64,000 nucleotides of DNA from Jatrophihabitans cynanchi (lineage in GTDB: Bacteria; Actinomycetota; Actinomycetes; Mycobacteriales; Jatrophihabitantaceae), in contig NZ_CP097463.1 in assembly GCF_027247405.1 (NCBI RefSeq), positions 1,116,001 through 1,180,000 on the forward strand, in the 5' to 3' direction. How positions within the stretch are numbered: position 1 is the stretch's first letter; every line of letters begins with the position of its first letter. A program made the translations under genes and the position numbers. Below, in pieces: positions 8,710 through 64,000 of the stretch. The notes beneath the pieces were generated by a model, which was not told where the DNA came from, made no database searches, and was given only the letters and a program-made list of their open reading frames with translations.

Positions 8710-9777
8710 GTGCAGAACACGCGATCACGCTCATGGTTCGAGGCCACGGCGGCGTGGGGGCGGCGGCACCGCGAGCCGGGCTGGCTGCTGCTGCCACTGC
8801 GGCTGTTCCTCGGGGTCACGTTCAGCTTCGCCGGGCTGCAGAAGCTCGCGAACCCCGATTACCTCGACCCGCACAGCCCCGCCTCGGTGGCCGCGCAGAT
8901 GCGGGTGTTCGCGCACACCAGCCCGATCGGCCGGCTGGTCGGGCTGTCCGCCCACGCCCCGACGGCGGTCGGGTTGCTGATCGCGTTCGGCGAGCTCGCG
9001 GTCGGCCTGGGCACCCTGCTCGGGCTCTTCCAGCGCATCGCCGCGCTCGGCGGTGCGCTGCTGTCCCTGACGTTCTTCCTGACCGTCTCGTGGAGCACCA
9101 CGCCGTACTACTACGGCTCGGACATCGTGTTCGCCTTCGCGTGGCTCACGATGCTCGGTTTCGGCTCCCAGGGTGTGCTCACCATCGACCACTGGCTACG
9201 CGAGCCGACGGTGGCGCAGGCCCCGCGGCCAGGGAACCGCAGGCCTGCTGCCCTCGCCGGCGTCGACCGGCGCACCGCGATCCGCGCGGGCGCGGCGGCC
9301 GCGCTCGCCACGGGCGGTGCGCTGGCGCTCGGTGGGGTGACCGCCGCGATCGGCCGCGCCGAGCACGGCACCGCCCACGCGCCTGCGGCGCTCGGGCCCG
9401 GGACGACGTCCCCGCCCGCCCGCCCGCAGGCGCATCGCCCTGCTCGCCCGTCCAGCGGCAGATCGACCGCGGGCACCGTCGTCGGCACCACCGACGAGGT
9501 GCCGGTAGGCCAGGCCCGCGCGTTCACCGACCCGGCCACCGGCAGCCCGGCCTGGATGGTGCACCCCTCGGGAGAGACGTTCGTCGCGTTCAACGCCACC
9601 TGCACGCACGCCGGCTGCCCGGTCCAGTTCGACTCGTCCGGCATGCAGTTCGTCTGCCCCTGCCACGGCGGGGTCTACAACGCGCGCACCGGCGCCGTGC
9701 TGCAGGGGCCGCCACCGGCGCCGCTGCAACCGATAGCAGTGCGGGTCGTGTCCGGACAGCTGCGGGTGGACGGATGA
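8710..9777 (+). CDS. DoxX-type membrane domain fused to a Rieske [2Fe-2S] domain
   Basis: This 355-residue fusion has residues about 20-165 forming a DoxX/TQO-small-subunit-like four-helix membrane domain (LRLFLGVTFSFAGLQKLANP, then three more hydrophobic segments). A further helix with Arg-rich flank (VDRRTAIRAGAAAALATGG, about 178-200) resembles an anchor or Tat-like signal before a Pro/Ala-rich linker. Residues about 255-355 are a Rieske domain with both cluster motifs intact: CTHAGC and CPCHGGVYN. DoxX domains are known from thiosulfate:quinone oxidoreductase, and Rieske domains relay single electrons. The fusion suggests a membrane electron-transfer unit on the outer face. It overlaps the next gene by 4 bp (ATGA). 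The start is GTG at 8710. Confidence 0.85.
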   Translation: MQNTRSRSWFEATAAWGRRHREPGWLLLPLRLFLGVTFSFAGLQKLANPDYLDPHSPASVAAQMRVFAHTSPIGRLVGLSAHAPTAVGLLIAFGELAVGLGTLLGLFQRIAALGGALLSLTFFLTVSWSTTPYYYGSDIVFAFAWLTMLGFGSQGVLTIDHWLREPTVAQAPRPGNRRPAALAGVDRRTAIRAGAAAALATGGALALGGVTAAIGRAEHGTAHAPAALGPGTTSPPARPQAHRPARPSSGRSTAGTVVGTTDEVPVGQARAFTDPATGSPAWMVHPSGETFVAFNATCTHAGCPVQFDSSGMQFVCPCHGGVYNARTGAVLQGPPPAPLQPIAVRVVSGQLRVDG

Positions 9778-48525: not shown

Positions 48526-51500
48526 GTGCACAGCAGGCTGGCCGTCCGCTGGGTGCCATGGTTGGCACCCCTCGAGCTCGCTGCTGCCGTCGCGCTGATG
48601 GGCCAAGTTGCCCTGCGCCTGCTCTCGCATCCGGGAACGGCGACCGAGGCGTGGTGGCCGGCCGCCGGCATCGCCGTCGCGGTGCTGGCGCGTTCGCCGC
48701 GCCGTCGCTGGCCGGTGTTGCTCGTCGCGATCACCGCGGGCAACACGGTGAGCAACCTGTGGTCCGGGCTGTCGCTGAGCGCCACCGTCGGCTTCGTCTT
48801 CGCCGACATCCTGTGCTGCGCCGTCGCCGCCGCGGTCCTGACCGGCCGTGGCCGCCGCTCGGTACTGCTGTCGAGCATCGGTGACGGGGTGCGGCTGCTC
48901 GTCGCGATCGGGGCCGCGATGGGCGGCGTCGGCGCGAGCGTCGCCGTGCGCTGCGCGATCGACGGCACACCGTGGCTGCCGGCGACGCGAGGCTACATGC
49001 TCAGCAACGGGTTGGGCCTGGTCATGATGACCCCGCTGCTCCTGCTGCCGCTCGGCCACCTCGCCTGGACCGAACTGCGTGATCGCCGCCGCAACGTCGA
49101 GTGGGTTGCGCAGCTGGCCGCGACGATGCTCATCACCGCGGCCAGCTGCGCAGTCCCCGGTATGGGGATCTGGCCGTTCCTGCTGTTCCTGCCCGTGCTC
49201 TGGGGCGCGGCGCGGCTCGGCCCGCTGCGCGCGATGCTGGGCGTCGTCGTGATCGGGCTCGTGACCACGCCGATCGCACTCGCCGGCCATGGCTCGTTCG
49301 CCGTCTTCGGCGACATCGCCCATCGCCAGTGGTCCATCCAGGCGCTGCTCGCCTCGCTATCGGTCGCCACGCTCGTGATGGTGCTCAGCGCGCAGGCGCA
49401 CGACAGTGCGATGGCCGCGATCATCGACCGCGAGAACCTGTTGAGCGAGGCCGAGCGCCTCGCCCAGCTCGGTTCCTGGACATGGGCCGTCGGCGACGAC
49501 GAGGTCATGTGGTCACGGCAGATGTACCGGCTGCTGGGCCTGGAGCCCGCCGACGGCGAGGCGGCCGGCGGGCACGCGCCCAGCACGGCGAACTTCATGC
49601 ATCTGGTGCACGAGGACGATCGGCCCGCGCTGCGGACCGCGATCCGGACCGCATCGGACACCGGCGAACCGTACGGCCTCGACGTCCGGATGATGCGCAG
49701 CGACGGCGAGCTGCGTTACGTGCACGCCCGTGGGCGCGCCGAGTTCGACTCAGCCGGCAAACTCACTCGGCTGCGCGGCACGTCGCAGGACGTCACCGAC
49801 GCCCGCCTCGCCGAGCGCGAGCTGGCGGCCGCGCGAGACCTGTACCGCAGCGTGCTCAGCGCGGTGCGAGAGCAGGCGATCGTCGGGACCGACCTCGACG
49901 GGCTGGTCACCGTGTTCAACGCCGGCGCCGAGAAGATGTTCGGCTACCGGGCGGAGGAGATGATCGGCAAGAGCGCCACGCTCATCCACGAGCCGGACGA
50001 GCTGACCGCGCGGGTCCAGGAGTACGGCGTCGACCCGCAGCGGCCGGTGCTTGCCCTGCTCGCGGGGGTGCAGCGCTCCAAGAGCCGCACCGTGCCGTGG
50101 ACGTACTGCACGCGCGACGGCCGGCGGCTGTCCTGCCTGCTCACGATCAGCGAGATGCGCGACAACGATGGCGAACTGTCCGGCTTCCTCGGCGTGATCA
50201 GCGACGTGACCGCGCAGCGCAAGGCCGAGGCGCAGCTGCGCGAGAGCGAGCAGCGCTTCCGGCTGGCCTTCGACGCAGCCTCGGTCGGCATGTACCTGAC
50301 GAGCCTCGCGCCCGAGAACCGCGGACGGATCCTGAAGGTCAACGCCGCGATGTGCGACTACCTCGGCCGTGACGAGTCGGAGATCCTCGCCGGCGACGTC
50401 TTCGCGATCTCCCATCCCGACGACGCCGTGAACATCGACGCAGTGCTGGCGGCGCAGGCGGGCGACGAGCTGCCGCAGATGCGACGCGAGAAGCAGTACC
50501 GGCACGCCAACGGCACCATGGTGTGGGGCATGCTCTCGTGCGCGGTCGTGCACCCCACCGACGGCAGCACGCCGTACGGCATCTCGCTCGTCGAGGACAT
50601 CACGGCACGCAAGGAGGCCGAGGAGCGGCTCAAGCACCTCGCGCTGCACGACTCGCTCACCGGGCTGCCCAACCGGGCACTGCTGATAGACCGGCTCGAG
50701 CACGCGCTCGCCGGCGCCGGCCGGTCGGGACGCCAGGTCGGCCTGCTGTACCTGGACCTCGACGGCTTCAAGCAGGTCAACGACAGCGCCGGTCACGTGG
50801 CCGGCGACGAGCTGCTGGTGCAAGCGGCGGTGCGGCTGCAGGACGCGGTGCGCCAGGGCGACACCGTCGGCCGGCTGGGCGGGGACGAGTTCGCGATCAT
50901 CTGCACCGACATTCACGATCACACCGATCTCGAGGTGGTCGCCGCGCGCTCGCTCGCCGCGTTGCGCTCGCCGTTCCAGTTGCAGGCCGGCATGTTCACG
51001 ATCAGCGCGAGCATCGGGCTCGCCCTGGTGGGACACGGGCGTGCAACCACCGCCGACGCGTTCCTGCACGAGGCCGACACCGCCATGTACACGGCGAAGC
51101 GGGCCGGCAAGGACCGCATCGGGGTCGCGGACGCGGGCGAACGGGCCCGCGCCGCGCGGGACACCCGGCTGCGTCCGGAACTGGAGACGGCGCTGGCGGG
51201 CAACGACCTGCTGATGTACGGGCAACCGGTCGTCGACCTGAGCGACGGGTCGGTCGTCGGTGTCGAGACGTTGCTGCGCTGGAACCACCCGCGCCGCGGG
51301 ATCCTGACGCCGGGCGACTTCCTGGACGTCGCCGAGGCGAGCCCGCTGATGGTGCCGATCGGACGCCGGGTGCTGGACGAGTCGTGCCGGATGGCCGCAA
51401 CCTGGATGCGCCGGCTCGGCGACCGCGCGCCGGACGTGCACGTCAACGTCTCGGGCCGCCAGCTCGAATCCGGCCAGCTGATCACCGACGTGCGCCGTGC

Positions 51501-51942
51501 GCTCGAGCGGCACCAGCTGCCGCCGGACCGGCTCGTCCTGGAGCTCACCGAGACGCACATGCCGCTGATCGCGGATTCGCTGCGCTCGGACCTGAATCGG
51601 CTGCGCGACAGGGGCGTGCGCATCGCGATCGACGACATCGGCACCGGCTACAGCAGCCTGGCGCGCATCACCGAGCTCCCCGTGGACATGCTCAAGATAG
51701 ATCTGAAGTTCGTGAGCGGTCTCGGGTCCGACCCCAGCTGCGAAGCCGTGGTGCGGGCGGTTCTCGAGATCGGGCGCGCCCTCGGCATCGCGGTCGTCGC
51801 CGAGGGCGTCGAGACCGAGGAGCAGGCGCGGTTGCTCGCCGACTACGGCTGCGAGACGGCGCAGGGGTACCTGTACAGCCGGCCGCACCCGGAGGCCCTG
51901 CTCAGCCGGCAGTTGCTGCGCGGCGTGCAGGCCAGCGCCTGA
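48526..51942 (+). CDS. MASE1-like membrane PAS-GGDEF-EAL protein
   Basis: This 1138-residue membrane c-di-GMP protein has an N-terminal MASE1-like sensor of about eight helices (residues about 10-300), three PAS/PAC units (about 310-430, 435-560 and 565-690), GGDEF (about 700-865) with RLGGDEFAIIC intact, and an EAL domain (about 880-1130). The EAL signature reads VETLLRW, a change of the middle Ala, while ELTETHMPL, IDDIGTGYSSL, LKIDLKF and EGVETEEQ keep the metal ligands, so hydrolase activity remains possible. The start is GTG at 48526 with only a weak ribosome-binding site. It is the second large c-di-GMP protein in 10 kb. Confidence 0.9.
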   Translation: MHSRLAVRWVPWLAPLELAAAVALMGQVALRLLSHPGTATEAWWPAAGIAVAVLARSPRRRWPVLLVAITAGNTVSNLWSGLSLSATVGFVFADILCCAVAAAVLTGRGRRSVLLSSIGDGVRLLVAIGAAMGGVGASVAVRCAIDGTPWLPATRGYMLSNGLGLVMMTPLLLLPLGHLAWTELRDRRRNVEWVAQLAATMLITAASCAVPGMGIWPFLLFLPVLWGAARLGPLRAMLGVVVIGLVTTPIALAGHGSFAVFGDIAHRQWSIQALLASLSVATLVMVLSAQAHDSAMAAIIDRENLLSEAERLAQLGSWTWAVGDDEVMWSRQMYRLLGLEPADGEAAGGHAPSTANFMHLVHEDDRPALRTAIRTASDTGEPYGLDVRMMRSDGELRYVHARGRAEFDSAGKLTRLRGTSQDVTDARLAERELAAARDLYRSVLSAVREQAIVGTDLDGLVTVFNAGAEKMFGYRAEEMIGKSATLIHEPDELTARVQEYGVDPQRPVLALLAGVQRSKSRTVPWTYCTRDGRRLSCLLTISEMRDNDGELSGFLGVISDVTAQRKAEAQLRESEQRFRLAFDAASVGMYLTSLAPENRGRILKVNAAMCDYLGRDESEILAGDVFAISHPDDAVNIDAVLAAQAGDELPQMRREKQYRHANGTMVWGMLSCAVVHPTDGSTPYGISLVEDITARKEAEERLKHLALHDSLTGLPNRALLIDRLEHALAGAGRSGRQVGLLYLDLDGFKQVNDSAGHVAGDELLVQAAVRLQDAVRQGDTVGRLGGDEFAIICTDIHDHTDLEVVAARSLAALRSPFQLQAGMFTISASIGLALVGHGRATTADAFLHEADTAMYTAKRAGKDRIGVADAGERARAARDTRLRPELETALAGNDLLMYGQPVVDLSDGSVVGVETLLRWNHPRRGILTPGDFLDVAEASPLMVPIGRRVLDESCRMAATWMRRLGDRAPDVHVNVSGRQLESGQLITDVRRALERHQLPPDRLVLELTETHMPLIADSLRSDLNRLRDRGVRIAIDDIGTGYSSLARITELPVDMLKIDLKFVSGLGSDPSCEAVVRAVLEIGRALGIAVVAEGVETEEQARLLADYGCETAQGYLYSRPHPEALLSRQLLRGVQASA

Positions 51943-51985: not shown

Positions 51986-52804
51986 TCAGGTGCCGGGTGA
52001 CGTCGCCTCGGCCGCCCCGCGGTCCGCGGTCCGGCCGCGGGCTCGCGGCCCGGCGGCCGGGTCCGCACGCCCAGCCGTCGTGGACGACCCGAGCCGCATG
52101 ACCACGACCGAGCCGAGCAGCACAACGCCGACGCTGACCAGCTGGATCAGCGGGGCCAGTACCGGGGCGTGGTCGGCCAGCGCGGCGGCGACCACGGCGC
52201 CGACCACGAGCGAACCCAGGATCTGCAGGCTGTCGGCGACGTCCCGCAATCGGTGACCGGACGTCAGCCGGACGATCATGGTGGTCAGCGTGCCGGTCAT
52301 GTACGTCGTGGACAGCCCGCTGACACCGAAGCGCTGAACGCTGCTGCTCTGCACGCCGAGGGCGAGCGCGTTGACGGCGAGCAGTCCGAGCTGCACGCTC
52401 CCGGTCGGGGCCGAGCCGGCCAGCCACCACCCGGTCGCGTAGGCGGCGAAGATGACGAACTCCACGCTCAGCGCCACGGTGACCGCCCGCGGCCAGACCG
52501 GTTGGTCACCGGCCGGAGTCCCCGCCAGCCGGCCGCCGAGGACGCAGCCGGCGATGTAGCAGAGCACGGCGGTGAGGATGTGTCGAGCCAACGACGCATC
52601 GCCCTCGGCGGCCGAGATGCCGAACAGCACCAGGTTGCCGGTCATGACGCTGGTGAAGGCACCGCCGAGCGCCAGGAACCCGATCGCGTCCGTCGCCCCG
52701 GCGTTCAGGGTCAGGACGACGACCAGGGCGTGCCGCAGCGCGATCCCCCGGTCCGCGGCGCCCGCCGGATCACGGTCCCTGCGCGCGAAAAGCATGTCGC
52801 TCAC
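51986..52804 (-). CDS. YoaK/DUF1275-type membrane protein
   Basis: This 272-residue protein has six or seven membrane segments, with family hallmarks VLTLNAGATDAIGFLALGGA, TSVMTGNLVLFG and STTYMTGTLTTMIVRL. The family function is not established. The start is uncertain: GTG 52804 is used here, ATG 52795 is an equally good alternative, and the frame runs open to 52846. A Pro/Gly/Arg-rich tail follows the last helix. It is convergent with the MASE1 protein and divergent from the oxidase cluster. Confidence 0.82.
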   Translation of the reverse strand: MSDMLFARRDRDPAGAADRGIALRHALVVVLTLNAGATDAIGFLALGGAFTSVMTGNLVLFGISAAEGDASLARHILTAVLCYIAGCVLGGRLAGTPAGDQPVWPRAVTVALSVEFVIFAAYATGWWLAGSAPTGSVQLGLLAVNALALGVQSSSVQRFGVSGLSTTYMTGTLTTMIVRLTSGHRLRDVADSLQILGSLVVGAVVAAALADHAPVLAPLIQLVSVGVVLLGSVVVMRLGSSTTAGRADPAAGPRARGRTADRGAAEATSPGT

Positions 52805-52896
52805 TATGGCAACGCGGTGCTGGCGTTGACCCCGTGCTGTATGCACAACTATTCGCGCCGTTCGATGTGCGTCTTGTCCGTGGCTCGGGGTTACCG

Positions 52897-52949
52897 GCGT
52901 GCTTAGCGTGAAGCACGCCCGGGGCGCCGTCAGGCGACCGTCCCCGGGC
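52897..52949 (+). promoter_or_regulatory. Two consecutive hairpins in the leader of the oxidase/Rieske cluster
   Basis: GCGTGCTT (52897-52904) pairs perfectly with AAGCACGC (52911-52918) around a 6-nt loop. Overlapping its end, GCCCGGGG (52917-52924) pairs perfectly with CCCCGGGC (52942-52949). The two lie 60-110 bp before the ATG of the first cluster gene, which has an AGGAGG site. They may be an operator for the regulator, an attenuator or an RNA-stability element. Confidence 0.45.
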
Positions 52950-53010
52950 CGATGACCAGCCGACGACCAGAACTGTTCACGGGTCTTCTCACAGGAGGAA
53001 AGCGATCACG

Positions 53011-53724
53011 ATGACCGAGCTGCTCTCGAAGGACGAGTTCCGCAGTGCGCTCGAGGATGCCATCAAGGGCCGCGAGGCGAAGAACGCCTCGTTCAGCTTG
53101 GCGTGGGCCGAGGGCAAGCTGCAGCGGCACCATTTCGCGCGGTGGGCCGAGAATCACTACCAGTACGTCGGCCCGTTCGCGGACTACCTCGGCTACATCT
53201 ACGGCAACACCCCGGACCAGTACACCGAGGCGAAGGACTTCCTGCTGCAGAACATGTACGAGGAGGAGCTCGCCGACATCCGGCACACCGACCTGCTCGT
53301 CCGGTTCGCCGAGGCCTGCGGCACCACGCGCGAGCGGGTGATGGACCCGAACAATGCCAACGCCGTCACACGCGGCCTGCAGGCGTGGTGCTACGCCACG
53401 TCGATGCGGGAGCACTTCACGGTCGCCACGGCGGCGATGGTGGTCGGCCTGGAGTCGCAGGTGCCGAGCATCTACAAGAAGCAGATCATTCCGCTGCGCG
53501 AGGTCTACGGCTTCACCGAGGACGAGATCGAGTTCTTCGACCTGCACATCACCTCCGATGTGGTGCACGGCGAGCGCGGCTTCCAGATCGTGCTCGAGAA
53601 CGCCGACACCGTCGAACTGCAGCAGCGCTGCCTGCAGTTCGTGCGCTGGGGAGCCGAGATGCGGTACTCCTACACGCGATCGCTCTACGACACCTACGTC
53701 GCGCCCGACATGGTCGCCGCCTGA
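53011..53724 (+). CDS. Haem-oxygenase-like di-metal oxidase (HDO), PqqC/TenA fold
   Basis: This 237-residue helical protein looks like PqqC/TenA at first sight but keeps a full set of six metal ligands arranged as in the HDO enzyme CADD: Glu85 and His92 (YEEELADIRHTD), Glu148 (VVGLESQVPS), His179, Asp183 and His186 (LHITSDVVHGER). HDOs use a di-iron or Fe/Mn centre and oxygen to oxidise amino acids, fatty acids or related amines, so the cluster's first step is likely an oxygen-dependent cleavage or hydroxylation. It is the first gene of the plus-strand cluster (AGGAGG before ATG), followed by a Rieske protein and a ferredoxin reductase that could supply electrons. Confidence 0.85.
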   Translation: MTELLSKDEFRSALEDAIKGREAKNASFSLAWAEGKLQRHHFARWAENHYQYVGPFADYLGYIYGNTPDQYTEAKDFLLQNMYEEELADIRHTDLLVRFAEACGTTRERVMDPNNANAVTRGLQAWCYATSMREHFTVATAAMVVGLESQVPSIYKKQIIPLREVYGFTEDEIEFFDLHITSDVVHGERGFQIVLENADTVELQQRCLQFVRWGAEMRYSYTRSLYDTYVAPDMVAA

Positions 53725-53820
53725 GGATCCACACGCGGGCGTCGGGCGGGCCGGCTGCTGTGGATCGAACCCGTCCGACGAACCGCCGGGATCCGGCATC
53801 TCTGTGTTGAGGAGCACCCT

Positions 53821-54186
53821 GTGGCTGACTGGCTCGCTGTGACCGAACTGTCCGAACTGGCCCGTCGCAAGAAGAAGCAGGTCGAGGTGAACGGTGAGCC
53901 GGTCGCGCTGTTCCTGATCGGTGCCGACGTCTTCGCCCTGGCCGACACCTGCATCCACAAACAGCGATCGCTCAGCAAGGGTGTACTGCTCAACGGCTGT
54001 ATCGTCTGCCCCGGTCATCAGTGGGAGTTCGACCCGGCGACCGGCTATGAGGCGACGCAGGACAGATATCAGCCCTCCTACGACGTGCGGATCGAGGACG
54101 GAACCGTGTATGTCGCGACGCAACCGCGGTCGGGCACTGAGACCGCGGCCCGCCGCGCGGTGGTCGCCGGCACGGTGACTCCATGA
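53821..54186 (+). CDS. Small Rieske-type [2Fe-2S] ferredoxin
   Basis: This 121-residue protein is a single Rieske domain with motifs CIHKQRSL (Cys-x-His) and CPGHQWEFD (Cys-x2-His). No membrane anchor is present, so it is a soluble ferredoxin. GAGGAG precedes the GTG start. It overlaps the FAD reductase gene by 4 bp (ATGA), the usual arrangement of a ferredoxin/ferredoxin-reductase pair serving an oxygenase, here presumably the HDO. Confidence 0.9.
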   Translation: MADWLAVTELSELARRKKKQVEVNGEPVALFLIGADVFALADTCIHKQRSLSKGVLLNGCIVCPGHQWEFDPATGYEATQDRYQPSYDVRIEDGTVYVATQPRSGTETAARRAVVAGTVTP

Positions 54187-55409
54187 CGACGTACGCGATC
54201 ATCGGCGCGGGTCAGACCGCCGCCGTGGCCGCGCGAACGCTGCGGCGGCGCGGTTTCGACGGGCGCATCGAGCTGATCGGAGCGGAGCCGCATCCGCCCT
54301 ACCAGCGTCCTCCGCTGACCAAGGAGTACCTGGCCGCCGGGCCGGACGGCTCGGACGACGAGCTGTTCCTGCTGGACGAGCAGTGGTGCGCCGCGAACGA
54401 CGTGCACCTGCGCCTGGGGCAGCGGGCGGTTCGCATCCGGCCTGCCGAATGGGCCGTCGACCTGGCCGACGGAACCCAGGTCCGCGCCGACAAGGTGCTC
54501 GTCGCGACCGGTGGTGCCGCCCGCAAGCTGCCGGGTGTGCGCGGCGAGCGGGTGCACTACCTGCGCACCCTCGACGACGCGAACACCCTGCGCAGGCTCA
54601 TCGGACCCGGGGTCCGGCTGATCGTCATCGGCGCGGGCTTCATCGGTTCGGAGGTCGCGGCGACCGCGCACTGCAAGGGTGCCGAGGTCACCGTGATCGA
54701 CACGCTGGACGCGCCGCTGCAACGGATACTCGGCCGCGAGCTGGGCGCCGTCTGCGCGACGATTCACCGCAGCAACGGCGTCACTGTTCGGCTGGGCGAG
54801 CCGGTGGAGTCGGTGGTCGAGCACGAGGACGCCGTCATCGTGAAGACCGGCCGGGCGCGCCTCGAAGGCGATCTGGTGGTCGTCGGTGTCGGCATCACAC
54901 CGAACATCGAGGTCGCGCAACGGTCCGGCGTCACCGTCGACAACGGCATCCTCGTCGACGAGTACTGCCGGACGAACGTGCCGAACATCTTCGCGGCAGG
55001 GGACGTCGCCAATCACTACCACCCGTTGTTCGACGAGCTGATCCGGGTCGAGCACTTCGACAACGCGACCAAGCACGGCGCGGCCGCGGCGAACAACATG
55101 CTCGGCAACGCCACGATCTTCGACGACCCGCACTGGTTCTGGTCGGACCAGTACGAGCTGAACATCCAGCACACCGGCCACGCCCGCGGCTGGGACGAAC
55201 TCGTGATCCGCGGTTCGGTGGACGAGTTGGACTTCTGCGCCTTCTACCTTCGCGAAAGCCGGGTTCGGGCCGCGTTCGCCGTGGATCGCGGCGCCGACAT
55301 CGCGATCGCGAAAGAGCTGATCTCGGGGCGGGTCCACGTCGCGGCGCACCGGCTCAAGGACGAGGACGTCGACCTGGCCGACCTGCTCGAGACGGAGCAG
55401 GCGTGGTAG
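54183..55409 (+). CDS. FAD-dependent ferredoxin reductase
   Basis: This 408-residue two-dinucleotide-domain reductase has FAD-binding GAGQTA near the N-terminus (YAIIGAGQTAAVAARTLRRR), the YQRPPLTKEYL segment typical of oxygenase ferredoxin reductases, NAD-binding IVIGAGFIGSEVAATA, and NIFAAGDVANHYH for the second FAD contact. It oxidises NAD(P)H and reduces the small Rieske protein encoded just upstream. It overlaps the aldehyde dehydrogenase gene by 7 bp if that gene starts at GTG 55403. Confidence 0.92.
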   Translation: MTTYAIIGAGQTAAVAARTLRRRGFDGRIELIGAEPHPPYQRPPLTKEYLAAGPDGSDDELFLLDEQWCAANDVHLRLGQRAVRIRPAEWAVDLADGTQVRADKVLVATGGAARKLPGVRGERVHYLRTLDDANTLRRLIGPGVRLIVIGAGFIGSEVAATAHCKGAEVTVIDTLDAPLQRILGRELGAVCATIHRSNGVTVRLGEPVESVVEHEDAVIVKTGRARLEGDLVVVGVGITPNIEVAQRSGVTVDNGILVDEYCRTNVPNIFAAGDVANHYHPLFDELIRVEHFDNATKHGAAAANNMLGNATIFDDPHWFWSDQYELNIQHTGHARGWDELVIRGSVDELDFCAFYLRESRVRAAFAVDRGADIAIAKELISGRVHVAAHRLKDEDVDLADLLETEQAW

Positions 55410-56863
55410 CCGCGATGACGGGGACCCGGCGGCGGAACTACCTCGGCGGCGAGTGGTCCGACGCAGCGGATGGGCGCGGGCGTGAGCGGCACAACCCGGC
55501 CGACATCCGCGAGGTGGTGGCCGTGGCCGCCGATTCGGATGCGGAGGAGGTCCGCGCCGCCGTCACCGCGGTCGCCGCCGGGTACCAGGAGTGGGCCGAG
55601 CGGGCGCCGGAGGCCCGCGCGGACGTCCTCAACCGGGCCGCCGACATTCTCGCCGGCCGGGCCGACGAACTGGCCCGCGAGCTGGTGCAGGAGGAGGGCA
55701 AGACCCTCGCCGAGGCGCTCAACGAGACGCGCCGTACCCCGCTGAACCTGCGCTTCTACGCCAGCGAGGCGTTGCGGCTGACCGGCCAGACGTTCCCGAC
55801 CGGCGACGGCTCGATGGTGTTGACCACCCGCGCGCCGGTCGGCGTGGTCGCGGCGATCACGCCGTGGAACTTCCCGCTCAACATCCCGTCCCGGAAGCTG
55901 GCCCCGGCCCTCGCGGCCGGCAACGGGGTCGTGTTCAAGCCCAGCGAACTGACGCCGAGCACCGCCGAGGCGCTCGTCCGGGCCCTGCTCGAGGCGGGGT
56001 TGCCCGCCGGGGCGATCGCGCTGGTCCATGGTGGCGCCGCGGCGGGTTCGGCGCTGGTGAGCGACCCGCGGGTGAGCGCGATCACCTTCACCGGCTCGTC
56101 GGCGGTCGGCCTGGCGATCCATCGCGCCACCACTCCCCGCCAGCGTTGCCAGCTGGAGATGGGGGGCAAGAACCCCATGGTGGTCCTGGCCGATGCCGAC
56201 CTCGATCGGGCCGCCGCACTGATCATTCGAGGCGCGTTCGGCCTCAGCGGGCAGGCGTGCACCGGCACCAGCCGGGTGGTGGTCGAGGACGCCGTGCACG
56301 ATGCGCTGGTCGAGCGGCTGGTGGCGGCGGCCCGCGCGCGCCGGGTGGGCAACGGCCTCGTCGACGGAGTCGAGATGGGCCCGCTGGCCTCGTCCGCCCA
56401 GCTGGCCAAGGTGGCCGAGCACGTCGGCGCGGCGATCGCGGACGGAGCCACGCTGCGGGCAGGCGACGAACCGCTGCCGACCGGGTGCGAGCACGGCCAC
56501 TTCATGCGTCCGGTCGTGCTGACCGATGTCGCGCCGGACTCCGCCCTGGCCCAGCAGGAGACGTTCGGGCCGGTGCTCGCCGTGCTGCGGGTCGGCTCGT
56601 ACGACGAGGCCGTCGCGGTCGCGAACAACACCGAGTACGGCCTGTCGGCCGGAATCGTGACCAGCGATATCGGCCGGGCGATCGACTTCTCGCGGCGCGT
56701 GGACAGCGGCGTGGTGAAGGTGAACCTGCCGACGACCGGGGTGGCGATGAACGCTCCGTTCGGCGGCATCAAGAACTCCAGTACGCAGACGTTCAAGGAA
56801 CAGGCAGGGGACACGATGATGCACTTCTACACCGTCGACAAGACCGTCTACCTCTCCGCGTGA
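55403..56863 (+). CDS. NAD(P)-dependent aldehyde dehydrogenase
   Basis: This 486-residue ALDH has the catalytic Cys286 in GLSGQACTGTSR, general base Glu252 in LEMGGKNPM, ITPWNFPLNIPSRKLAPALA for cofactor binding, and ITFTGSSAVG as the Rossmann glycine motif. It oxidises an aldehyde to an acid, likely the product of the HDO or of a later amine step. GTG 55403 is preferred because of GGAG upstream; ATG 55415 is possible. It overlaps the second Rieske gene by 4 bp. In overall sequence it is closest to aliphatic and semialdehyde dehydrogenases, but substrate is unknown. Confidence 0.92.
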   Translation: MVAAMTGTRRRNYLGGEWSDAADGRGRERHNPADIREVVAVAADSDAEEVRAAVTAVAAGYQEWAERAPEARADVLNRAADILAGRADELARELVQEEGKTLAEALNETRRTPLNLRFYASEALRLTGQTFPTGDGSMVLTTRAPVGVVAAITPWNFPLNIPSRKLAPALAAGNGVVFKPSELTPSTAEALVRALLEAGLPAGAIALVHGGAAAGSALVSDPRVSAITFTGSSAVGLAIHRATTPRQRCQLEMGGKNPMVVLADADLDRAAALIIRGAFGLSGQACTGTSRVVVEDAVHDALVERLVAAARARRVGNGLVDGVEMGPLASSAQLAKVAEHVGAAIADGATLRAGDEPLPTGCEHGHFMRPVVLTDVAPDSALAQQETFGPVLAVLRVGSYDEAVAVANNTEYGLSAGIVTSDIGRAIDFSRRVDSGVVKVNLPTTGVAMNAPFGGIKNSSTQTFKEQAGDTMMHFYTVDKTVYLSA

Positions 56864-57288
56864 GCGCACCGGAGACGGATCCGCAGCCGAGCGAGTTCGG
56901 ACTCGAGCCGGAGTACGTGTACGTGGCTCGCTCCGGGCAACTGCCCGATGGCTACGTGCGGCGCTTCTACCCGCGCGGGCTCGAGCTGTGCCTGGCCCGC
57001 AACCACGGCACGGCGTACGCGGTGTCCAACACCTGCACGCACATGGCCTGTCTCCTCTCGGCAGGCAAGGTGGTCGAGGACGGCATCGGCTGTTCCTGTC
57101 ACGGCAGCATCTTCGACCTGGACACCGGCGAGGCGATCTATCCGCCTGCCACCAAACCGATCGCGACCTACCCGGTGGCCGAGGTCGAGGGCAAGCTGTT
57201 CGTTCGGGTCACCGAGCAGGACGCCCTCGAGGGTGCGGCCCGCAAGCGCGAACTGGAAGAGGCGCGGCGCCGGGCCGCGTCCAGCTAG
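56860..57288 (+). CDS. Second Rieske [2Fe-2S] domain protein
   Basis: This 142-residue protein has Rieske motifs CTHMACLL and CSCHGSIFD and a charged C-terminal helix (KRELEEARRRAASS). The cluster-binding loops differ from those of the other small Rieske protein in the cluster and more resemble the NirD/phenylpropionate-dioxygenase-type ferredoxins. Start GTG 56860 overlaps the ALDH stop. Two distinct Rieske proteins in one operon suggest two oxidative steps or a relay. Confidence 0.88.
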   Translation: MSAPETDPQPSEFGLEPEYVYVARSGQLPDGYVRRFYPRGLELCLARNHGTAYAVSNTCTHMACLLSAGKVVEDGIGCSCHGSIFDLDTGEAIYPPATKPIATYPVAEVEGKLFVRVTEQDALEGAARKRELEEARRRAASS

Positions 57289-57290
57289 GC

Positions 57291-58895
57291 ATGAGCGAAC
57301 CCGCCGATCCGCCGCGCGCCGCTTCGCTGTCGAGCGAGGCGATGGTGGTCGCCAACCATCCCGCTGTCAGTTCGGCCGGGCTGGCCGTGCTGCGCCAGGG
57401 CGGCAACGCGATCGACGCGACCCTGGCGATGGCCGCCGTGTGCTGGCTGACGCTGCCCGGCCAGTGCGGCGTAGGTGGCGACGCGTTCGCGGTCCTGCGC
57501 GAGCCGGACGGGCGGGTCTGGTCGATCGGGGCCAGCGGGTTCGGGCCAGACGGCGGCGTACCGGACTTCTACCGCGCCCGGGGACTGAGCACGATTCCGC
57601 TGTCCGGCCCGCTCGCCGTCGCCGGAGCGGGGACGATCGCGGCCATCGCGGACCTGCACGCCGCGGGCGCCACGCGCTCGCTCGCCGAGCTCTGGGCCCC
57701 GGCCCTCGCGCTGGCGGCACACGGGGTGCCCTGCTCGGCCAAGACCCGAGGCGACATCCTCGAACACGAGGCGGAACTGCGCGCGGACGAGGGTCTGGCC
57801 GCGATGTTCCTGCCGGCGGGCCGGGCACCCCGCGTCGGCGAGCGACTGACCTACCCGCAGCTGGCGCGCACGATTCGCCTGCTCGCCGACGATCCCGCCG
57901 GCCTCTACCGCGGCGAGTTGGCCGAGCGCGCGGTGTCCGAACTGGTGCGCGCGGGTGCGCCGTTCAGCGGCGAGGAGTGGTCCGCCTCGGGCACCGTGCT
58001 GCGCGGCCCGGCGATCTCGCACCGTTACGGCCCGCTCACCGTGCACGCGACGCTGCCGCCGAGTCCGGGCTGGATGCTGCTGCAGCAGGCCGCGATCTGT
58101 GACGGGCGGCTGACCGAGCCGTCCTGGCCGGGTGTCGAGGCCGTCGGCGTCCTGGCCGGCGCGGCCCGCCATGCGTTCCGGGACCGGTACGCGCGCTGCG
58201 GCGGGGACACCGACCGGTGGCGCGAACTGCTCGAACCGGCTGCGATCAGCGCCGCGCGGGCCGGTCTGCTGGACGTCGACCTGACCGCAAGCGGCGTCGG
58301 CCGCGACGGGGACACGACCTCCACCGTGGTCGTCGATGCGGACGGTCGCGCGGTCAGCTTCATCCAGTCCCTGGCGTTGACGTTCGGCGCGCACCGGACG
58401 GTGCCGGGCACCGGGATCGCGTTGAACAACCGGCTCGGCCGCGGCGCCTACCTGATCCCGGGGCACCCCAACGAGGTTCGCCCCCGTCGCCGGCCACTGC
58501 ACACGCTCAACGCCTGGGTAGCGACCGATGCGAGCGGCCGGCTCGTGCACGCCGGCAACACCCCGGGCGGTGACGGCCAGGTGCAGTGGAACATGCAACT
58601 GCTCTCGCACCTGGTCGACCACGGCCTGGACCCGCAGCAGGCCGTGAACGCTCCCCGCTTCACCATCTATCCCGGCAGCGACGCGAACGTCGTCGGCGAG
58701 CCGGACGAACTGCGCTGCGAGTCGCGGCTCGGGGCGCCGGTGCTGCAGGGCCTGGCCGAAGCCGGGCACCGGGTACGCGCGCTCGGGCCGTGGGACGCCG
58801 GTGGCGGGGCGTTGGTCATCTCGCTCGATCACCGGCTCGGCTACCTCGCCGGCGGCGCGGACCCACGGCAGGACGGGGTGGCCCTCGGTGTCTGA
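57291..58895 (+). CDS. Gamma-glutamyltransferase/gamma-glutamyl hydrolase family
   Basis: This 534-residue Ntn-hydrolase precursor of the GGT family is self-cleaved before a Thr. The candidate nucleophile is Thr342 in RDGDTTSTVVVDADGRAVSF, with downstream HRTVPGTGIALNNRLG and NTPGGDGQVQWNMQ as typical substrate and oxyanion elements. No clear signal peptide is present, unlike periplasmic GGTs, so it probably acts inside the cell. GGT homologues also include cephalosporin acylases and gamma-glutamyl-amide hydrolases. In this cluster it could remove a gamma-glutamyl tag from an amine (inference). It starts 2 bp after the second Rieske gene. Confidence 0.88.
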   Translation: MSEPADPPRAASLSSEAMVVANHPAVSSAGLAVLRQGGNAIDATLAMAAVCWLTLPGQCGVGGDAFAVLREPDGRVWSIGASGFGPDGGVPDFYRARGLSTIPLSGPLAVAGAGTIAAIADLHAAGATRSLAELWAPALALAAHGVPCSAKTRGDILEHEAELRADEGLAAMFLPAGRAPRVGERLTYPQLARTIRLLADDPAGLYRGELAERAVSELVRAGAPFSGEEWSASGTVLRGPAISHRYGPLTVHATLPPSPGWMLLQQAAICDGRLTEPSWPGVEAVGVLAGAARHAFRDRYARCGGDTDRWRELLEPAAISAARAGLLDVDLTASGVGRDGDTTSTVVVDADGRAVSFIQSLALTFGAHRTVPGTGIALNNRLGRGAYLIPGHPNEVRPRRRPLHTLNAWVATDASGRLVHAGNTPGGDGQVQWNMQLLSHLVDHGLDPQQAVNAPRFTIYPGSDANVVGEPDELRCESRLGAPVLQGLAEAGHRVRALGPWDAGGGALVISLDHRLGYLAGGADPRQDGVALGV

Positions 58896-59361
58896 CGCAG
58901 TGGTCCCCGACGGTGGCGCCCGCGACGCGCTGCCCACCGCTCCGGCACCGCGGGGCCGGTACGTGCCTGTGGTCGTGCACGCCGGAATGGCCTACAGCGC
59001 CGGCATGACGCCGCGGGTGGACGGTGAACTCGTCCGGCGTGGACTCGTCGGCGCCGAGGTGTCGCTCGAGCGTGCTCGTGAGCTCGCCGGGCTGGCGGCG
59101 GCCAACGCACTGTCCGCGATCGTCGACGCAGTCGGCGGCCTGGAGAACATCGAGCGCTGCGTGCGGTTGAGCGTCTACATCGCGGCGGCGGCCGGCTTCA
59201 CGGCGCACACCTCGGTCGCCGACGGCGCATCCGAACGGCTACATGCCGTGTTGGGTGAGCGGGGTGCGGCTGCCCGTTCGGCGATCGGCGTGGCCAGCCT
59301 GCCCTCGGGCGCCCCGCTCGAGGTCGAACTCGTCGCCGCCGTGCGCGGGCCCGGACAGTGA
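58888..59361 (+). CDS. RidA/YjgF-family protein
   Basis: This 157-residue RidA-superfamily protein has GRYVPVVVHAGMAYSAGMTP, AANALSAIVDAVGGLENIER and the C-terminal LPSGAPLEVELVAAV. RidA proteins hydrolyse reactive imines/enamines to ketones and ammonia; operon-embedded relatives often act on specific amine-catabolism intermediates. The Arg of the canonical active site is replaced (LPSGAP rather than LPRGAL-like), so it may not be a classical deaminase. Its GTG start overlaps the GGT stop by 8 bp, marking it as the last gene of the cluster. Confidence 0.85.
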   Translation: MSDAVVPDGGARDALPTAPAPRGRYVPVVVHAGMAYSAGMTPRVDGELVRRGLVGAEVSLERARELAGLAAANALSAIVDAVGGLENIERCVRLSVYIAAAAGFTAHTSVADGASERLHAVLGERGAAARSAIGVASLPSGAPLEVELVAAVRGPGQ

Positions 59362-59375
59362 TCGACAACCGCCGA

Positions 59376-59828
59376 TCACGCGCCGCCCTGCTCGGCGACA
59401 TGCTTGGCGAACGCCTCGAGAGCCGCCGCTCCGACGGCCTTGTCCTGTGCGCCGTTACCGCCGCTGACGCCCACGGCGCCCACGATCTGCCCATCGTGCT
59501 CGATCGGGAAGCCGCCGACGAAGATCGCGAACTTGCCGGGATAGATCATGTTGATGCCGAATGCCTCGTTGCCGGGGAGCGCGGGCCCGTTCGGGGGCTC
59601 GGTGAACTTGTGGGTCGCGCGCTCGTGACCGGCCGCGGTGAACGCCTTCGCCATCGAGATCTCCACTCCGGTGAGGCGTGCGCCCGGGAGGCGGTGCAGT
59701 CCGAGCACATTGCCACCGTCGTCGCAGACGCAAATGGTCTGCTTCACCCCGATCTCCTCGGCTTTGGCCCGGGCCGCGGCCAGCATTGGCAGCGCATCGT
59801 CGAGGGTTATCCGGTAGACCTTGTGCAT
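59376..59828 (-). CDS. GlcG/HbpS-family protein
   Basis: This 150-residue single-domain protein of the GlcG/HbpS family has ALPMLAAARAKAEEIGVKQT, VCDDGGNVLGLHRLPGA, the SMAKAFTAAG segment and the C-terminal VGAVGVSGGNGAQDKAVGAA. Members bind haem (HbpS) or accompany glycolate and other oxidation operons, and their chemistry is largely unknown. It is convergent with ridA (14 bp between stops) and divergent from the PucR regulator, so it shares the regulator's control region. Confidence 0.87.
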   Translation of the reverse strand: MHKVYRITLDDALPMLAAARAKAEEIGVKQTICVCDDGGNVLGLHRLPGARLTGVEISMAKAFTAAGHERATHKFTEPPNGPALPGNEAFGINMIYPGKFAIFVGGFPIEHDGQIVGAVGVSGGNGAQDKAVGAAALEAFAKHVAEQGGA

Positions 59829-61684: not shown

Positions 61685-62389
61685 TCACTCCTCGCGGCTG
61701 CGCTGAGTACCGCTGCGCGCGGGCGTCCGGAGTTCCTCGACGATCCGGGTGAGGAACGGGCCGGTGTTGCCGGAGGCCACCGCCCCCCAGATGCCGACGG
61801 CCAGGTTGCCGAGTGCCGCTTCCCGCGCCTGCGGCGGCAGCCCCAGCTCGTCAAGAGCAGCGACGAGGTCGAGCTGGGCGGCGATCATCCGGCGGGCCAC
61901 CAGGTCATTGACGCGCATGGCGAGCTGCTCGGACCCGTCGATCACGACCCCGACCCGGCCGAGCGCGCTGGCGAGCTGAGCCCGCTCGGTGCCGCTCATG
62001 GCGCCGGCGATCAGTGCGGCGGGGCTGCCCTGCTCGATCTGCGCGCTCTGACCGATGATCTTGCATCCCACCAGGCGCAGCCCGGGGACGGCGATGTTCG
62101 CCGTCGGCAACTCGGTGGCCAGGTTGACGACCAGCGCTGCGCGGTCGACATGCGGAGCAATCCAGGCGGCCGCGGCGGCTACCTCGGGAGCCGGAACCGC
62201 GAGCAGCACGATCGCGCAACCGGACGCTGCCGCGGGGTCCGAACCGACCTGCAGAACGCGGCCCGCACCGTCGGTCACCCGGCCCGGACGCCTCGAGACG
62301 AGCACCACCTCATGCTCGCCGCCCAGGCGCGTGGCCAGCGCCCGCCCCATCCGGCCGGCCCCGACCACACAGACCCGCAGTCGGCTCAC
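61685..62389 (-). CDS. NAD(P)-binding reductase-like protein (F420/ketopantoate-reductase-like)
   Basis: This 234-residue Rossmann protein has [18 protein letters not shown] at the N-terminus, [20 protein letters not shown] (middle strand) and a helical C-terminal dimerisation part with [20 protein letters not shown]. It resembles 6-phosphogluconate-dehydrogenase-like or ketopantoate reductases, but substrate residues cannot be assigned. Its GTG start overlaps the stop of the upstream OppF-like gene by 4 bp, so it belongs to the transporter operon. Confidence 0.75.
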
Positions 62390-63474
62390 GCGCCCGAGGT
62401 GTCGGCCGGTTGCGCGTCCTTCGCGGCGAGTTCTTCGGCGCGAAGGCACGCCGACCAGTGACCGGGCGTGAGCTGCTCGGCGCGCGGCACCAGCTCATGG
62501 CAGCGCTCCACCGCCACCGGGCAGCGGGTGTGGAAGCGGCATCCGGGCGGCGGCTGTGTCGGGTTCGGCAGCTCACCCTTGATCACGATGCGGCGGCGCT
62601 CTCGCTGGGCCGGCGGGTCGGGCACCGGGATCGCCGACAGCAGTGCCCGCGTGTACGGATGCGCGGGGTGCTCGTAGATCTCGGTGCGGTCGGCCATCTC
62701 GACCAGCCGGCCCGCGTACATGATGCCGACCCGGTGCGAGATGTGCCGCACGACCGAGAGGTCGTGGGCGATGAACAGGTACGACAGCCCGAGCTGAGCC
62801 TGCAGGTCCTGGAGCAGGTTGACCACCTGCGCCTGCACCGAGACGTCCAGGGCCGAGACCGGCTCGTCGCAGATCACCAGCTCCGGACGCAGCGCGAGTG
62901 CTCGCGCGATCCCGATCCGTTGCCGCTGGCCGCCGCTGAACGCGTGCGGGTAGCGGTCAGCCGCGTCGGCAGGAAGGCCCACCAGAGTGAGCATCTCCGC
63001 CACCTGCTCGACGGCCTCGGCTGGGCGCTTCACCAGGCCGTGCACCAGCAGCGGCTCGGCCACGATCTCGCCGACCTTCATCCGCGGGTTCAAGCTGGCG
63101 TACGGGTCCTGGAAGACCAGTTGCAGGTTGCGCCGCACGACGCGGCGGTCCCGGGACGACAGATGCGTGATGTCGCGGCCCGCGAAGGTGATCCGCCCTG
63201 CCGTGATCGGCGCCTTGCCGAGGATCGCCCGCCCGGTCGTCGTCTTGCCGGAGCCGGTCTCGCCCACCAGGCCGAGTGTCTCGCCGCGCCGGATCTGGAA
63301 GCTGACGTCGGTGACCGCGTGGGCCAACCGTGCCTGCCGACCCCAGAAGCCGGAGTGGCCGAGCGGGTAGTCGACGGACAGCCCGTCGACGGACAGCAGC
63401 ACGTCAGCGTCCGCACGGTCGCCAGCGATCTGCGACTCGGCCTCCCCCGCGATGGCCTCTACTCGCTGTGCCAA
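62386..63474 (-). CDS. Oligopeptide/dipeptide ABC transporter ATPase, OppF type
   Basis: This 362-residue ATPase has Walker [17 protein letters not shown], signature [15 protein letters not shown], Walker [13 protein letters not shown], switch His in [12 protein letters not shown] and the C-terminal oligo-binding motif [17 protein letters not shown]. The start is TTG at 63474 (or 63477): GGAGG lies 5-8 nt upstream, and the ORF overlaps the OppD stop by about 16 bp. It partners the truncated OppD-type ATPase in importing peptides, nickel or a peptide-like compound. Confidence 0.9.
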
Positions 63475-64000
63475 CAAGCCAGCCTCCTTCCGGTCTCGGC
63501 GTCCAGCAGCAGTGCGGGCGGCTCGGTGAGGCACCGGTCGATCTGCTGCGAGCAGCGTGCTGCGAACGCGCAGCCGGGCGGCGGCGCGTCCATTCTCGGC
63601 GGGCTGCCGGCGATCCCGGTCAGCCGGTGCGCGACGGAGTCCAGCCGCGGCGTCGAGGCGAGCAGGCCACGTGTGTACGGATGCCTGGGGTCGGCGAACA
63701 TCTCGTCGATGGGCCCCTCTTCGACGATCTTGCCGGCGTACATCACGGCCACCCGCTGGCACAGGCCGGCCACGACCCCCAGGTCGTGGGTGATCATCAG
63801 CACCGCCAGCCCCAGGCGATCGCGGATCTCGGCCACCAACTCCAGGATCTGGGCCTGGATCGTCACGTCCAGGGCGGTAGTGGGCTCATCGGCGATGAGC
63901 AGTTCCGGCTCGCAGGCGAGCGCCATCGCGATGAGCGCCCGCTGCCTCATGCCGCCGGAGAACTCGTGCGGGTACTGCCGCAGCCGCTCGCGCGGTGAGG
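63459..64000 (-). CDS. Oligopeptide/dipeptide ABC transporter ATPase, OppD type, 5' end outside window
   Basis: The frame is open beyond the right edge. What remains is the C-terminal half of an OppD-type ATPase: [19 protein letters not shown] (signature), [20 protein letters not shown] (Walker B), [11 protein letters not shown] (switch His) and the C-terminal [18 protein letters not shown]. Walker A and the Q-loop lie off the window, as do the permease and binding-protein genes expected upstream. It overlaps the OppF-type gene. The substrate cannot be told from this half. Confidence 0.9.

Follow-up and report, generated by a model that had tools for sequence, protein, structure and literature searches.

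The window analysed here is the whole stretch of 64,000 nucleotides from Jatrophihabitans cynanchi (contig NZ_CP097463.1, positions 1,116,001 to 1,180,000), which lies in a single 4.5-Mb contig, and its subject is a gene module built around a heme-oxygenase-like di-metal oxidase (HDO). Seven plus-strand genes in an operon-like layout encode, in order, the HDO, a first Rieske protein (Rieske 1), an FAD-dependent ferredoxin reductase, an aldehyde dehydrogenase (ALDH), a second Rieske protein (Rieske 2), a protein of the gamma-glutamyltransferase (GGT) family and a RidA-family protein (Table 1); open reading frames (ORFs), Pfam matches and an alignment to CADD bear out the strand, the families and the six HDO ligands named in a preliminary description of this DNA. 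Its tight packing from the second gene on is also borne out: the gap between HDO and Rieske 1 is 96 bp, after which neighbouring genes overlap by 4–8 bp or stand no more than 5 bp apart, as the choice of start codon decides; a start at 57342 for the GGT-family gene would instead leave 53 bp before it. The position 52897 at which that description began the cluster lies 114 bp 5' of the HDO start. All seven genes are called coding by a codon model, which picks 57342 as the GGT-family start; the model was trained on the window's own genes, so the call is circular for the window and not for other loci.

Relatives were collected in one collection scan, in which the best 80 of at least 521 loci were kept; all are actinobacterial by their record titles, and their HDOs are 80–92% identical to that of the window, so that the counts describe close relatives. 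Loci of at least 20,600 bases are called full-length, which applies to 58 of the 80, the remaining 22 being cut by contig ends. The 80 loci, a further locus (L004) and the window make up the 82-locus set used for clustering, alignments and gene-order runs; L001, L002, L003 and L005, being copies of the window, L006 or L004, were left out. The numbers of alignment rows (82, 79, 78, 73, 71 or 65) depend on the calls of a home-made gene-finding program, by which some genes seen with tblastn were overlooked; matches to Rieske 1 and Rieske 2 were counted separately in the order counts for the 58 loci. The components, their intact catalytic residues and their genetic association can be read from these sequences. 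A search for HDO, Rieske and reductase genes in other genomes supports the earlier proposal that the HDO has a dedicated electron chain, since in 58/58 full-length loci the genes for Rieske 1, reductase and Rieske 2 come after the HDO on the same strand, all within 4.5 kb; because the gene order is kept in other genomes, a chance arrangement is excluded. The full set of seven occurs somewhere in 54 of these loci, and 47 have it on the HDO strand within 7.5 kb. By gene calls, the uninterrupted run HDO–Rieske 1–reductase–(ALDH)–Rieske 2 is found in 70/82 loci, and 17 of these runs have no intervening ALDH, which leaves Rieske 2 next to the reductase. Of the proteins encoded in the window, the HDO and an HbpS-like protein show the highest conservation (median identity to the window 83% and 80%), the electron carriers standing at 51–56%; the nearest HDO, 92% identical, belongs to a genome of the same family. 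Such strong conservation of the HDO suggests one fixed, common substrate. The module occurs across many genera of actinobacteria, and its carriers include many soil bacteria. In an even sample of the class, the HDO occurs in 5 of 394 genomes, its own included, and the other four all hold the seven genes (two of the four are already among the 80 loci); in an even sample of the phylum it occurs in 2 of 396, its own and L004 (genome G054).

The module is larger than seven genes. The genes listed in the preliminary description are real, but the extent given there was too small, as it missed the HbpS-like gene, the PucR regulator and the module's transporter; in the 58 full-length loci, HbpS is present in 56, PucR in 57, a major facilitator superfamily (MFS) transporter in 53 and a permease without a named family in 54, and all four belong to the module. 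The HbpS/GlcG-like protein, which comes close to the HDO in conservation and stands beside it in both phyla in which the HDO was traced, may take part in catalysis or may deliver iron for the cofactor of the HDO. PucR-type regulators are broad in scope; purine catabolism, considered from the PucR name, was rejected, as no purine enzyme occurs among the protein clusters found in at least 40 loci. The MFS transporter is EmrB-like by family profile, and the orthologue in the window's genome is 52% identical to that of L007, the next best protein reaching 33%. The permease has no match in Pfam or NCBIfam; its model (pLDDT 84) bears a weak resemblance to TRAP/INDY-type organic-anion carriers (8 matches, E up to 0.001, TMq 0.40–0.58), and the second-ranked structural match is 9a59, titled MLEN-METQ. 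Structure predictions took 24 of the 82 HDO sequences and 34 of the 66 permease sequences as input. A search for the permease in the window's own genome came back empty, a kind of answer that proves little. In that genome, an opp/nik-type ATP-binding cassette (ABC) transporter, so called from NCBIfam matches of its binding protein and permease, occupies the interval from the PucR gene to the MFS gene of the module and apparently stands in for the module's permease. Proteins that bind agrocinopine, nickel, peptides or heme are near relatives of the ABC solute-binding protein. The transporter types suggest a small anionic or peptide-like substrate, and only this is claimed because the permease matches are weak and the relatives of the binding protein are varied.

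Table 1. Genes of the HDO module and its surroundings; positions are those of the window, and the last column gives profile matches or remarks.
Feature	Position	Strand	Evidence
HDO, 237 aa	53011–53724	+	PF14518, 5e-34; ATG preceded by AGGAGG
Rieske 1, dioxygenase-type [2Fe-2S] ferredoxin, 121 aa	53821–54186	+	PF00355, 2e-14; GTG start
FAD-dependent ferredoxin reductase, putidaredoxin/dioxygenase type, 408 aa	54183–55409	+	Pyr_redox_2 + Reductase_C
ALDH	55403 (GTG) or 55415 (ATG) to 56863	+	Aldedh, 1e-148
Rieske 2, [2Fe-2S] protein with bc1-type motif, 142 aa	56860–57288	+	PF00355, 2e-17
Predicted N-terminal nucleophile (Ntn) hydrolase, GGT superfamily, oxamate-amidohydrolase-like branch	57291 (or 57342)–58895	+	PF01019 (G_glu_transpept), 1e-83
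RidA-family protein	58888 or 58900 to 59361	+	PF01042 (Ribonuc_L-PSP), 1e-11
HbpS/GlcG-like protein, part of the module	59376–59828	-	PF03928, 7e-34
PucR-type transcriptional regulator	59957 (or 59987)–61681	+	HTH_30, 9e-16
DUF1275 membrane protein, divergent from HDO, facultative neighbour	51986–52846	-	PF06912, 9.5e-30
NAD(P)-binding protein, F420_oxidored clan	61685–62449	-	PF03807, 5.7e-9
opp/nik-type ABC transporter, first two genes (ATPases)	62389–63998	-	ORFs; continues past the window to ~67929
MFS transporter of the module, beyond the window after the ABC transporter	~68206–69654		ORFs of the adjoining stretch

Other neighbours are less constant. DUF1275 proteins form a cluster present in 40/82 loci, and with the window's protein as query they are found in 22/58 full-length loci. 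The NAD(P)-binding protein of the F420_oxidored clan has no match in any of the 58; it is a possible imine reductase, its membership of the module being judged from position only. Upstream of the DUF1275 gene, the window encodes a protein of ~1,100 residues (48526–51942, +) that by eye resembles a PAS/GGDEF/EAL signalling protein. In many mycobacterial loci (L049, L052, L061, L065, L066, L069, L070, L081, L083 and others), the module is flanked by ribosomal-protein genes and by a sulfatase and its modifying factor, families assigned from cluster representatives, which suggests one common insertion place in that lineage. An amidase-signature enzyme (cluster 16) is found near the module in 12 loci; a second permease-family copy stands with it downstream of RidA/GGT in L057, L064, L068, L078, L080, L081, L083 and L084, and near HbpS in L044 and L048, and this recurring pair hints at amide substrates.

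A second version of the module has another electron chain. When plasmid records were searched by protein, six from Betaproteobacteria proved to hold an HDO 67–69% identical; three of them were examined, namely Caballeronia SBC2 (L087, for which 18 annotated proteins were compared), Cupriavidus metallidurans CH34 (megaplasmid) and C. campinensis. All three carry the HDO, an ALDH (46–47.5% identical to the window's), HbpS and the permease family, the Caballeronia permease being 47–48% identical to the actinobacterial ones and the other two 50–51% to that of Caballeronia. They also carry a GntR regulator, an ornithine-cyclodeaminase-family protein, two Fer2 ferredoxins and a BenC-type reductase with Fer2, FAD and NAD domains, and neither the two Cupriavidus stretches nor the 18 Caballeronia proteins gave a match to the window's Rieske proteins, reductase, GGT-family protein or RidA. 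The Caballeronia record has an annotated alpha/beta hydrolase, unmatched in the other two records. The electron supply has thus been swapped between the phyla, not lost; what stays with the HDO across these records and the actinobacterial loci is ALDH, HbpS and the permease, together with an electron supply of its own whose parts can be exchanged, and two small Fe-S proteins stand beside the HDO in each version examined (Rieske 1 and 2; two Fer2 proteins; one Rieske and one Fer2 protein in L004). On the Caballeronia plasmid, an annotated ring-hydroxylating dioxygenase alpha/beta pair lies ~10 kb from the HDO (L087, 2204–3995).

In the HDO itself, alignment to CADD places a 3-His/3-carboxylate ligand set at E85, H92, E148, H179, D183 and H186, each present in 82/82 rows with the exception of E148 (81/82). 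The HDO of Geodermatophilus sabuli (L025, 9980–10708) has a Lys at the E148 position, which is either a sequence error or the loss of one ligand. The AlphaFold2 model (pLDDT 82, pTM 0.79) has a heme-oxygenase-like helical fold, and the top Foldseek matches are CtCADD, PqqC and UndA, the best being CtCADD 8va9 (TMq 0.81). It has been reported that a Tyr pair in p-aminobenzoate synthases is linked to Mn/Fe use (PMC11965152). Since this pair is replaced by L147 and F175 in 82/82 rows of the HDO (the CADD numbers 141 and 170 being derived by offset from the NePabS numbers in that paper), an Fe/Fe cofactor appears likelier than Mn/Fe. The HDO is predicted to be the terminal, O2-activating di-metal oxygenase of the module.

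By their motifs, the two Rieske proteins are of different types. Rieske 1 has the motif CxH..CxxH in 78/78 rows and the bc1-type extra Cys in none; its best PDB match is CarAc ferredoxin and that of the reductase is putidaredoxin reductase. Rieske 2 has the motif CxHxxC...CxCH[GN]S, in which C59, H61, C64, C78, C80, H81 and S83 are found in 71/71 rows, both bc1-type extra cysteines (C64 and C80) among them, and residue 82 is G in 62 and N in 9. The extra Cys pair and the following Ser of bc1-type Rieske proteins go with high potential, and a predicted low-/high-potential Rieske pair may feed one di-metal centre here. A further Rieske domain is encoded in the window at 9478–9729 (+; genome 1125478–1125729), far from the cluster.

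Among the remaining enzymes, the ALDH has E252 and C286, which we take to be its catalytic residues, in 73/73 rows. Its best NCBIfam profile is the 2,5-dioxovalerate (alpha-ketoglutarate-semialdehyde) dehydrogenase type, which stays below the cut-off in both phyla, so that an acid semialdehyde as its substrate is only a lead. The best PDB match of RidA is PA0814 (4.6e-36), and its Arg126, found in 65/65 rows, corresponds by motif only to what is presumably the catalytic Arg of RidA imine deaminases, R105.

It is probable that the module encodes a multicomponent HDO monooxygenase for the catabolism of a small anionic amine or amide, yielding an imine and an aldehyde. We infer electron flow, reaction type and substrate class as follows. 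Electrons would pass from NADH to the FAD reductase, which would hand them on singly to Rieske 1 and probably also to Rieske 2, and the Rieske protein or proteins would deliver them to the di-metal centre of the HDO, probably Fe/Fe; the HDO would oxidise a small amine or amide with a carboxylate group, most likely at the position adjoining the nitrogen, to an imine or carbinolamine; the imine would be hydrolysed by RidA, the released aldehyde would be oxidised by the ALDH, and an amide would be cleaved by the Ntn hydrolase before or after the oxidation. PucR would control the module genes, and the substrate would enter through the permease or, in the window's genome, through the opp-type ABC transporter. 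It is likely that the HDO receives its electrons from the module's own chain, and the balance leans slightly towards a catabolic pathway with amine/imine chemistry. The wider proposal, in which the HDO is the terminal component of an NADH-driven catabolic monooxygenase, two unrelated chains have been recruited to the same HDO with the same substrate, and a low-potential-type and a bc1-type Rieske protein cooperate, is tentative and falls a little short of probable.

Several observations weigh against this interpretation. In 11/58 full-length loci, the seven genes are not all on the HDO strand within 7.5 kb. L004 holds a divergent version in which nothing matches the window's reductase, and in the Fer2 protein (9136–9498, -) adjoining its divergent HDO the third of the four usual cluster Cys is replaced by Asp. 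The window's genome contains three matches to the Rieske-oxygenase alpha-subunit family (PF00848) elsewhere and 14 Rieske domains in all, so cross-talk is possible. ALDH and RidA are common families that could deal with side products. In the betaproteobacterial records examined, an ornithine-cyclodeaminase-family protein takes the place of RidA and the Ntn hydrolase has no match, and the imine and amide steps therefore rest on analogy.

An unlikely alternative, though one with precedents, is that the substrate is an amino acid, which the HDO would N-oxygenate, desaturate or split at a C-C bond as BesC, SznF, HrmI or UndA do with theirs, and that the pathway detoxifies or salvages the product. 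Characterized HDOs mostly N-oxygenate, cleave C-C bonds or desaturate amino or fatty acids (PMC13108848), and the EmrB-like MFS transporter of 53/58 full-length loci would suit export of a toxic intermediate. However, the ALDH, the PucR regulator and the importer, whether the organic-anion-carrier-like permease (a weak likeness) or the opp-type ABC transporter, indicate catabolism, and no biosynthetic enzymes occur among the clusters found in at least 40/82 loci.

The case that the Rieske and reductase genes serve a Rieske oxygenase encoded elsewhere, already raised in the preliminary description, would leave the HDO to cellular reductants. Rieske 1 and the reductase are indeed most like aromatic-dioxygenase components by NCBIfam and PDB matches, which stay below equivalog cut-offs, and the three alpha-family matches offer possible clients, but the nearest lies ~167 kb from the cluster and one distant alpha gene has its own reductase adjoining. 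Given that the Rieske and reductase genes adjoin the HDO in every full-length locus, while a different chain stands beside the same HDO in the Betaproteobacteria, this case is quite improbable. No ring-hydroxylating alpha subunit is found among the clusters in at least 40/82 loci, and no other oxygenase among these 12 protein clusters or the scanned representatives of rarer ones (the representatives scanned with Pfam were those of clusters 7, 10–16, 18, 20, 24–28, 30–33 and 38).

The preliminary description had suggested degradation of an amine, amino-acid or gamma-glutamyl compound with release of an aldehyde; amine, imine and aldehyde chemistry is still the most economical reading, and the gamma-glutamyl part has been given up. 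In that part, GGT would free glutamate and an amine from a gamma-glutamylated amine, and the HDO would oxidise the amine. The GGT-family protein does match PF01019, has the nucleophile Thr in 65/65 rows and a GDTT motif that aligns with the small-subunit start, and scores 206 bits with TIGR00066, under the cut-off of 358. However, residues R114, D433, S462 and S463 of E. coli GGT, which we take to hold the gamma-glutamyl group, align with S, H, H and T, and these replacements are conserved over the 65 rows (S 64, H 64, H 61 with N in 3, T 64). Instead, the small-subunit motifs SFIQS, HTLN and GGDGQ are common to this protein and 5hft_B, 5hft being, as we understand it, the oxamate amidohydrolase HpxW. 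Gamma-glutamyl specificity was rejected on these grounds; the protein is better called an Ntn amidohydrolase, provisionally of the oxamate-amidohydrolase-like branch. No gamma-glutamylating (glutamine-synthetase-like) enzyme is found among the cluster representatives scanned, the GGT-family protein has no match in the betaproteobacterial records compared, and both a gamma-glutamyl substrate and the pathway built on it are very improbable. Least credible of all is a role for the HDO as a cofactor enzyme of the PqqC type or as a p-aminobenzoate synthase that sacrifices its own residues (CADD/PabS), although CADD and PqqC are its nearest named families and folds, because CADD Tyr27 and Lys152 correspond to Ser29 and Gln158 in 82/82 rows each and its NCBIfam scores are below cut-off for CADD (90 bits against 200) and PqqC (45 against 240).

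The multicomponent monooxygenase proposed here can be compared with several known systems. Three-component Rieske dioxygenases, such as the anthranilate enzyme AndA, have electron carriers that resemble the module's reductase and Rieske 1, but their ring-hydroxylating alpha/beta subunit is not in the module, where the HDO takes its place. HpxW, which has the three small-subunit motifs in common with the module's Ntn hydrolase, sits in a uric-acid cluster, unlike the genome context of the module. It is an oxamate amidohydrolase (as cited in PMC5270733). CADD and NePabS (PMC11965152) are the nearest solved HDOs by sequence and fold and have the same six ligands, but their self-sacrificed Tyr and Lys are absent from the module's HDO and the Mn/Fe Tyr pair is L147 and F175 there. 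The HDO superfamily has more than 10,000 members, of which about a dozen are validated, mainly in biosynthesis so far; the 2026 review that gives these figures (PMC13108848) contains the word "ferredoxin" nowhere and names MboB as a redox partner. No published description of the module was found in the literature searched, whose coverage left most subscription papers outside, and no HDO paired with a Rieske ferredoxin among the papers listed; the module is real, conserved and, within that literature, undescribed. A dedicated HDO redox partner is reported there once (MboB). The proposal, if true, would supply a native electron source for an HDO together with a catabolic HDO pathway in many actinobacterial genera and in Betaproteobacteria, and would offer, ready-made in nature, a way to compare two electron chains serving the same oxygenase.

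In its layout, the module is like the aib cluster of Rhodococcus wratislaviensis but with an HDO as oxygenase. In AibH1H2-AibG-AibF with AibE, a non-Rieske dinuclear oxygenase is fed by a Rieske ferredoxin and a reductase, a permease and, downstream, an ALDH are likewise encoded, and the pathway is the O2-dependent catabolism of an amino acid, 2-aminoisobutyric acid (Aib); however, the Aib oxygenase has an amidohydrolase fold and is not an HDO, and its reductase has FMN and an annotated 2Fe-2S domain (PMC7782822). More such non-Rieske oxygenases were found later from Rieske neighbourhoods (PMC10811679). Among HDOs that have a redox partner of their own, the closest precedent comes from mangotoxin biosynthesis, where the HDO MboA works with MboB, a dedicated partner that uses NAD(P)H; MboA needs MboB, and chemical reductants could not replace it (PMC13185094, 2026). 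MboB is a single reductase with flavin and Fe2S2, whereas the actinobacterial module has a separate FAD reductase and two Rieske proteins in a catabolic-looking cluster, and the betaproteobacterial reductase, with its Fer2, FAD and NAD domains, is nearer to the MboB type.

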